Below, one piece after another: positions 3,415-4,640 of a stretch of 8,844 nucleotides of DNA (position 1 is its first letter; each line of letters opens with the position of its first letter). This DNA is from Coriobacteriales bacterium (GTDB taxonomy: Bacteria; Actinomycetota; Coriobacteriia; Coriobacteriales; UBA8131), in NCBI GenBank assembly GCA_031254905.1, contig JAIRTN010000055.1, positions 1 through 8,844 of the forward strand, written 5' to 3'. The position numbers were made by a program, and so were the translations under genes. A model generated the notes under the pieces. That model did not search any database. It was not told the origin of the DNA and saw only the letters and a program-made list of their open reading frames with translations.

Positions 3415-3426
3415 GAGCGGCCGCTC
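3415..3426. repeat. 12-bp perfect palindrome over a stop codon
   Basis: GAGCGGCCGCTC is a perfect palindrome that overlaps the stop codon of the minus-strand four-helix protein (stop at 3427-3425). It has no loop and no T tract, so it is not a convincing terminator. Confidence 0.35.
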
Positions 3427-3853
3427 AGTGCTTTACGACAAGTTCGTCGCAAATCGCAACATAGGTGACAACATAATAGACGGCGGCCGTTAAGAGCGCC
3501 AAGCCAAGTCCACTGTAAAACGGAGCGATGATGAAACCGGGCACAAGACCGGAGAGCCTCACGGCCGCTCCGAGAACAATCATGACGGCAATCAAAACAT
3601 AGGATTTAGCGTCGAAGAACTTGAACATATTCGTGAGTTCTTCCGTATAGCCACGTATGCGCCGTATATGCCTGCGGGTAATCATGAGGAACATGACGAG
3701 AAACAGAACATAGACGGCAAGAGAGGCAAGGGCCATCGGGGCAGTCCACGAAACCTCGGCGGCCGTAACCCCAACACTGACGACGCTGAAGCCCGCCGCG
3801 AGCCAGACAAAAGCCGCAGCCAACAATAACATCTTTGTAGGAATCTTAAGCAT
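3425..3853 (-). CDS. Four-helix integral membrane protein, uncharacterised
   Basis: A 142-residue membrane protein with hydrophobic segments at about 8-30, 38-59, 85-102 and 108-133. A basic loop after helix 2 (TRRHIRRIRGYTEE) leads to the block FKFFDAKSYVLIAVMIVLG and then RLSGLVPGFIIAPFYSGLGLAL. I associate this pattern (a KIPTK-type N-terminus, FFD-KSY, then SGLVP and FYxGLGLAL) with an uncharacterised family of small membrane proteins in anaerobic Gram-positive bacteria; no function is known to me. Start chosen at MLKIPTK (3853) by that family resemblance. An in-frame ATG at 3871 has a better-placed GGAG (6 nt upstream) and would add six residues. It lies on the same strand as the hydrogenase and oxidase operons, but the repeat cluster separates it from the former. 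Confidence 0.75.
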   Translation of the reverse strand: MLKIPTKMLLLAAAFVWLAAGFSVVSVGVTAAEVSWTAPMALASLAVYVLFLVMFLMITRRHIRRIRGYTEELTNMFKFFDAKSYVLIAVMIVLGAAVRLSGLVPGFIIAPFYSGLGLALLTAAVYYVVTYVAICDELVVKH

Positions 3854-3903
3854 GCTGGAAGCATAGCACACTCCGCCACATTGTGCTGCCTTCGCAACAA
3901 ACT

Positions 3904-3921
3904 CCTCATATTCCTCATATT
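3904..3921. repeat. 9-bp tandem duplication
   Basis: CCTCATATT occurs twice in direct succession, just outside the REP-like cluster. On the minus strand the second copy includes TAATAT, which could serve as a -10 box for the four-helix protein, although no -35 is evident. Confidence 0.4.
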
Positions 3922-3965
3922 AGCCGTGTGTGTGTCATGGGGACGTATCTCCTGACACACGCGCC

Positions 3966-4026
3966 GTGTCATGGGGACGTATCAGGGGACACACTGAGTG
4001 TGTCACCTGATACGTCCCCATGACAC
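3966..4026. repeat. Inner 29-bp hairpin of the cluster
   Basis: Arms 3966-3994 and 3998-4026 are reverse complements at 28 of 29 positions, with only TGA between them. Either strand as RNA or single-stranded DNA would form a very stable hairpin. It lies just past the hydrogenase protease gene and could end or protect that transcript, although no T tract follows. Confidence 0.85.
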
Positions 4027-4031
4027 ATTTC

Positions 4032-4057
4032 CCCTGACACACGTCAGTGTGTCAGGG
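4032..4057. repeat. 11-bp hairpin at the stop codon of the protease gene
   Basis: CCCTGACACAC and GTGTGTCAGGG are perfect reverse complements with the 4-nt loop GTCA. The stop codon of the minus-strand hydrogenase protease gene (4046-4044) lies in this loop. Confidence 0.75.
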
Positions 4058-4640
4058 CGTCCCCATGATTCAGTGTGTCAGGAGATACGTCCCCATGACA
4101 CACTGGGTGGATGTTGCGTTGGTTGAGGAAGCCGATGACGCATTCGACGAGGAAGGGTATCGCGGCCTCAACGGGTGGTGTGAGGCCGATGGCGTATTCG
4201 CTGGGGAGCATGTTTTGCACTTGGACGCCGAGACAGTGCGCCTCGGGGGTATAGCCGACGAGCGCGGCTGCTTCAAGCACGTCGATGAAGCGTGTGTCGT
4301 GCGCCCCGTGGAAGGCCTCGTAGGGGGCAATCTCCTCCGGGAGATAGGTGACGACGGTGCCGGGCGGCTGGCCGGTGTTGTCGACGGCGTCTACCAGCAA
4401 GATGACGTCGAAGCGTTTGAGGTCGGCAAGAAGTGCCATACCCATGGTGCCGCGGTCGAGCACCTCAACGTTTTCGGGAAATTCGTAGCGCGCCAAGAGT
4501 TCCGCGGCGACGCGCGGCGCTGCCCCTTCGTCGAGCATGAGGATGTTGCCCACGCAGAGTATGGCGACGCGGCCCGCGGCGACTTGCGCGTTTGGGAGGT
4601 TTGCGGCGACGTGGCGCTTGTTAGTATCCCCATTATTCAT
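4044..4640 (-). CDS. hyaD: [NiFe] hydrogenase maturation protease, HyaD/HybD family
   Basis: Endopeptidase that removes the C-terminal peptide of the hydrogenase large subunit after nickel insertion; cytoplasmic. The family start AILCVGNILMLDEG (residues 26-39) is present. Metal-recognition residues match E. coli HybD: Glu38 (Glu16), Asp84 in LLVDAV (Asp62) and His114 in GAHDTRF (His93). The block LGVQVQNMLPSEYAIGLTP near 137-155 is also typical. The fold should be complete by about residue 178 (ECVIGFLNQRNIH). The last 19 residues and the stop are encoded inside the REP-like cluster, so the native C-terminus has been replaced or extended. There is no ribosome binding site before the ATG at 4640; a TATACT box ends 6 nt upstream, which suggests a leaderless transcript. 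It is 131 nt downstream of the cytochrome gene, with a structured gap between. Confidence 0.92.
   Translation of the reverse strand: MNNGDTNKRHVAANLPNAQVAAGRVAILCVGNILMLDEGAAPRVAAELLARYEFPENVEVLDRGTMGMALLADLKRFDVILLVDAVDNTGQPPGTVVTYLPEEIAPYEAFHGAHDTRFIDVLEAAALVGYTPEAHCLGVQVQNMLPSEYAIGLTPPVEAAIPFLVECVIGFLNQRNIHPVCHGDVSPDTLNHGDALTH

Follow-up and report, generated by a model that had tools for sequence, protein, structure and literature searches.

REPINs formed from GTAG REPs, together with RAYTs, were reportedly described by Bertels and Rainey in 2011. For GTAG REPs in single-stranded form, cleavage between C and T (once also at CA) near the stem-loop, followed by strand transfer, is documented in vitro for other enzymes in the available text of PMC8266576. 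The motif GGGGWSAS is described for the majority of TIRs, and no REP-like sequences were found near the genes of RAYT subclass 2.1, both according to the portion of Quentin 2018 (PMC6006769) drawn on here.

We analyzed a cluster of inverted repeats in a contig of an uncultured Coriobacteriales bacterium; the window below is that whole 8,844-nt stretch. The cluster is very likely a nest of non-autonomous REPIN-like repeats of the TIR/TIRYT type, and the element class associated with it is probably RAYT subclass 2.1. Its core, GGGGACGT, agrees with the published GGGGWSAS at six of eight positions and thus lacks the strict motif; since GGGGWSAS is typical of TIRs and not obligatory, we class the window as a variant and not as a strict member. 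In the passages of Nunvar 2010 (PMC2817692) on which we rely, GTAG REPINs and their RAYTs resemble the cluster in having an inverted pair of short palindromic units, in being dispersed and in their link to a Y1 enzyme, both of which are seen here in relatives. The cluster differs from them in that it has no GT(A/G)G head and has a larger loop with a conserved core. A literature search, covering part of the matching papers, returned no description in Coriobacteriales that we recognised. The kind of element is already known; the new part is the stacking pattern of its copies in relatives, which is unusually regular.

Architecture of the cluster and the end of hycI

The window contains cydA/cydB-like genes, a gene for a hycI-like hydrogenase maturation protease, a cytochrome b561 gene and genes for two NiFe hydrogenase subunits. 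The cluster begins 58 bp from the listed start of a 148-aa reading frame and runs into the 3' end of hycI (Table 1).

Table 1. Positions of the repeat units and of the adjoining reading frames in the window.
Feature	Position	Strand	Details
148-aa reading frame	3425..3871	-	Downstream of hycI, same strand; no Pfam match
Outer full unit, stem-loop	3930..3960	+	8-bp stem GTGTGTCA/TGACACAC; 15-nt loop TGGGGACGTATCTCC; core GGGGACG at 3939-3945
Inner unit	3966..3995	+	Left arm of inner inverted pair
Inner unit	3997..4026	-	Right arm of inner inverted pair; one mismatch
11-bp hairpin	4032..4057	none	Built from unit-arm sequence: CCCTGACACAC (4032-4042), GTCA loop, GTGTGTCAGGG (4047-4057)
Cut-off unit	4058..4072	-	Minus strand TGAATCATGGGGACG; stops at 3' end of core, then hairpin 4032-4057
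Outer full unit	4073..4103	-	Inverted repeat of 3930-3960, without mismatch
hycI-like hydrogenase maturation protease (PF01750)	4044..4640	-	3' end overlapped by cluster

The unit order +, +, -, - (truncated), - that was claimed in the initial annotation was recovered with every part in its place, including the perfect outer inverted repeat (31 nt, 100% complementary), the inner inverted pair with its single mismatch, whose arms measured 30 nt, and the third, 11-bp hairpin between the repeats. The same annotation had contrasted perfect outer arms with drifted inner ones, a distinction that did not hold up: 0 mismatches in 31 positions and 1 in 30 are not detectably different (Fisher p 0.49). 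Each outer unit reads GTGTGTCA, T, GGGGACG, TATCTCC and TGACACAC, the core lying on the loop's 5' side. The main difference between outer and inner units is in the part of the loop that follows TATC (TCC versus AGG), which looks like a difference of subtype. The hairpin at 4032-4057 is probably a remnant of further copies. Structurally, both the inner pair (3966-4026) and the outer pair have the form of a REPIN-like doublet. Our stem-loop detector picked out the two outer units and 3997-4026 in the window, three in all, and none with any of three altered cores, and an Rfam scan of the window gave no matches.

A chance origin of the cluster is excluded. The 17-mer TGTCATGGGGACGTATC occurs four times in the window without mismatches; in 200 dinucleotide shuffles, with up to three mismatches allowed, the mean number of occurrences was 0.01 and four were never reached. 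The number of perfect 31-bp inverted repeats expected by chance in a random window of the same composition is 1.5e-11. The 174-nt cluster is much more stably folded than its shuffles, with a z of -16.0 as DNA (plus strand) and of -15.9 as RNA (minus strand).

The repeat also reaches into a protein. When the window protein was aligned with 39 relatives (P0002-P0040 of 120 listed), HycI homology stopped at about residue 179, near which the relatives end or diverge. The codon after residue 179 begins at 4103, where the repeat itself starts on the minus strand; residues 180-198 and the stop codon (4103-4044) are therefore repeat sequence. The protease thus takes its last 19 residues and its stop from the repeat, and the window presents a repeat of a transposase-linked type becoming part of a protein-coding gene. 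Among 73 related loci examined, 48 had a hycI match (five of them ending early downstream), and no half-unit was seen at up to 400 bp from where the match ends (0/48); the insertion is therefore peculiar to the lineage of the window among those compared. No terminator-like or promoter-like site was found within 3700-4400.

Related units and Y1 transposase genes in other Coriobacteriales

The nearest relatives are uncultured Coriobacteriales with 69-85% identity in the best segment of the large hydrogenase subunit (L001-L008, L020 and L064); several of their genome series presumably come from termite guts. With up to two mismatches, the 17-mer was found at 35 places in five of the ten nearest genomes (15 in G003, 12 in G005, four in G002 and two each in G008 and G010), against one control place. 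With up to one mismatch, 41 places were found in 10 of 395 genomes of the order, against four places for a reversed-pattern control: 21 in G148, 10 in G003, two each in G383 and G395, and one in each of six others, where some of the single places may be due to chance. The exact 17-mer is present in none of the 395 genomes (none of the 41 near matches is exact), nor was it found in viral contigs.

Units of the same design were then sought by structure (core GGGG[AT]C[GA] with arms of at least 6 bp). The detector counted 57 units across 372 kb of G003 (2, 1 and 1 with the three altered cores) and 30 in 274 kb of G148 (0, 2 and 2); these stretches were picked partly for known matches, so that the counts are not genome-wide densities. 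Units outside a greedy set of reading frames, which covers 89% and 87% of the stretches, amount to 37/57 and 15/30, respectively; because the frames were called mechanically, this placement is only a rough sign of intergenic location. The dispersed units of relatives stand largely as inverted pairs; such pairs recur in G003 and G148, where their cores are for the most part 10-53 or 95-97 nt apart. A search at genus level around G003 returned G003 itself as the sole genome. In G004, one locus (L221) has GGGGACG copies every 18 bp, a tandem repeat with no apparent relation to the stem-loop units.

Genes with a Y1_Tnp match are present in five of the ten nearest genomes and in 11 of 24 further ones. 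In G148, a RAYT frame of 261 aa (L154 1359-2144) with HVH and YIHRNP motifs lies between two inverted unit pairs. Its downstream pair consists of the unit GTGTGTCAAGGGGACGTATAATTTGACACAC at 2168 and an inverted copy at 2265, and this unit agrees with that of the window at 26/31 positions; the upstream pair resembles the downstream one without being identical. In the window, tblastn with 24 RAYT frames of relatives (E up to 0.01) detected no transposase like theirs. The dispersed paired copies and the Y1/RAYT-type gene between pairs of related units support, by way of the relatives, the earlier suggestion of a non-autonomous mobile element.

We collected 30 RAYT loci, in 24 of which the frame passed our filter (L104, L109, L112 and L133-L135 were excluded). 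For 21 of the 24 frames, the flanking inverted repeat outscored the best of 20 shuffles. GGGACG points inward on both sides of 14/24 frames and outward on both sides of 2/24, the inward core on both sides being missing in 10/24; the strict published GGGGWSAS occurs on both sides at 2/24 loci. For all four frames scanned against NCBIfam, the best match was the REP-associated tyrosine transposase (E from 8e-14 to 1.8e-18, below the curated cut-off). In an alignment of 22 of the 24 frames (L137 and L142 excluded, L140 taken as L154), every frame matches Y1_Tnp, with the HUH residues H60 and H62 and the tyrosine Y119 invariant. A C-terminal R-Q-x-x-R-x-T-G is conserved as well, its G being invariant and the other residues at least 90% conserved. 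The helix-turn-helix typical of subclass 2.1 is weakly matched: six of the 22 frames hit HTH_23 at E up to 1, the best at 0.0018 and the G148 frame at 0.0065, below the Pfam cut-off. Among solved structures, the G148 enzyme had three matches, none of them a transposase.

Two further observations, from genomes of unstated completeness, count against the link between enzymes and repeats. The sole RAYT found in G003 (L108) bears the terminal repeat GTGGACAGGGGTACGTATAATTCGTCCATC, which is unlike the dispersed families in the G003 stretches analyzed. G389 has a copy of the unit with one mismatch and no RAYT match.

Nested copies and the origin of the cluster

Half-units, defined as G[AT]CA up to 4 nt before the core, were counted in stretches of five relatives. 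In G003, 34 of 137 half-units run, no more than 12 nt past the core, into the arm of a further half-unit on the same strand, and none of these 34 has its own 3' arm of at least 6 bp. Nested half-units were also counted in G006 (4/13), G004 (5/38) and G385 (1/27), and G148 had none (0/44). Uniform placement would give 0.33 nested pairs in G003, which is a weak null because the elements cluster; the informative part of these counts is that the cut falls between the core and the 3' arm. When core pairs within 30 bases were counted instead, the reversed-core control was high (13 in G003 and 18 in G004), we think because the reversed core also matches inside ACAGGGG-type units. The 19 core pairs of G004 do not exceed its 18 control pairs, and we therefore used the half-unit counts.

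Some nests are mirror-symmetric. Convergent pairs with a perfect outward arm of at least 16 bp were found in 10/30 cases in G003, 2/5 in G004, 1/13 in G148, 0/3 in G385 and 0/0 in G006. Perfect arms of whole nests extend over 64 bp (L163 9192-9322), 51 bp (L227 1249-1354), 42 bp (L160 16143-16249) and 29 bp (L172 15195-15265). These four nests are layered palindromes of half-units, in some of which the shell and its content belong to different families. G003 shows the nesting pattern strongly, and G004 and G006 also have it; G148, whose link to a transposase is the closest, lacks it. In the window, the cut-off unit 4058-4072 has the same type of junction as those in the relatives; its outer units are whole, which makes the window only a partial example of nesting. 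Stepwise insertion, as originally suggested for the cluster, fits the half-unit junctions of the relatives.

Two loci show related arrangements. At L190:451 in G148, an inverted unit pair lies inside a long palindrome with a 33-bp outward arm, the outer part of which is unlike the unit type. At L107:400-550 in G006, tandem 5'-half units are cut at varied points past the core, and a RAYT gene is located on the same contig.

Template switching can make the arms of a palindrome identical. The nesting might accordingly have arisen by replication slippage and template switching within one original palindrome, without repeated insertion, and 30 of the 44 nested junctions, which join the same or nearly the same arm, agree with such an origin. 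However, the other 14 join different families, their arms differing at no fewer than two of seven positions (13 of the 14 are in G003), and slippage alone does not supply such differences. Nor does it supply shells unlike their contents, as in the L172 and L160 nests listed above. We consider this explanation unlikely.

It is far less probable that the cluster is a canonical REP or BIME of the GTAG (or CGTC) super-family, at which gyrase, IHF or a nuclease would bind or cleave. Inverted pairs of short palindromes do adjoin the end of a gene, and CGTC is found in the reverse complement of the core. Yet neither GTAG or GTGG nor their complements CTAC and CCAC occur anywhere in 3930-4103, so the definition by tagged ends fails, and the CGTC lies in the 15-nt loop and not at the foot of the stem; the CGTC REPs of PMC3733652, in the text we draw on, have CGTC at the foot of a stem of 8-9 bp with a loop of 4-5 nt. 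Both REP classes are ruled out by their end motifs.

Equally remote is the retention of the cluster for a function as regulatory RNA or terminator between hycI and the 148-aa frame. The two frames are on the same strand with the cluster between them, and the RNA fold on the coding strand is very stable, as noted above. Against this stand the lack of any terminator-like or promoter-like site in 3700-4400, the lack of a half-unit at the same place in all 48 hycI loci of relatives, and the dispersal of the same sequence type elsewhere in their genomes. Finally, an assembly or library artefact of fold-back reads, to which palindromes are prone and with which the location of 9/34 G003 junctions within 150 bp of the edge of the analyzed stretch would agree, is scarcely credible, since the cluster lies in the middle of the contig, its interior is asymmetric, it adjoins hycI at one end and different sequence at the opposite one, and the same unit type recurs in the genomes of several relatives.

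For the insertion of a mobile repeat we propose the following course. A Y1 (HUH) enzyme encoded elsewhere in the genome of the window would recognise the hairpin in single-stranded DNA, cleave near it, and copy or move inverted pairs of units to new sites. Several such events at one spot behind hycI would have built the nest, and the event that placed the unit 4073-4103 would have given hycI its present end. Judging from the nested junctions, copies may open in the loop 3' of the core, possibly with an exchange of apex hairpins. Going further, the GGGGACG core might mark the place of opening, and new copies might enter the loops of old ones, the incoming hairpin taking the place of the one at the apex of an existing inverted pair, core to core; we put this forward tentatively, as a possibility somewhat on the doubtful side. 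Under such a self-targeting exchange of hairpin for hairpin, older copies would be left with just their 5' arm and core on both sides, which would account for the perfect mirror shells that surround a younger copy, sometimes one of another family. If it is true, the growth of the element is confined to its own graveyards, and the cut-off unit 4058-4072 is one such event. More generally, nested copies preserve a record of the arrival sites of new ones, through which cleavage and the choice of target can be tested directly.

Comparison with described elements

As far as the available text of PMC3733652 goes, REP dimers inside palindromes, namely A. variabilis GTAG-15 and H. neapolitanus CGTC-1, share with our nests a pair of repeats within another palindrome. 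They differ from the nests in that, in the relatives studied here, many shells are older copies of the same type of element, cut just 3' of the core.

The TIR repeats of TIRYT genes and TIRtrons (Di Nocera 2013, PMC3733652) are inverted repeats that flank a Y1 tyrosine transposase, and in the sections of that paper considered here some carry a GGGG-type motif, some are self-complementary and some families are dispersed as dimers or clusters. The repeats studied here are like them in these respects, with the flanking of a Y1 gene and the dispersal seen in relatives, whereas their core is GGGGACGT in place of GGGGWSAS and lies within the loop of a stem-loop, and their copies are nested.

The enzymes of the relatives are similar to TnpAREP subclass 2.1 as given in the part of Quentin 2018 at hand (PMC6006769), having the Y1 domain, the conserved C-terminal part and weak helix-turn-helix matches, HTH_23 among them. 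That account reports subclass 2.1 enzymes without REP-like partners, as far as its consulted portion extends. Here, in contrast, stem-loop units flank such genes and are dispersed, and these Coriobacteriales appear to supply the partners, built to a shared stem-loop design.
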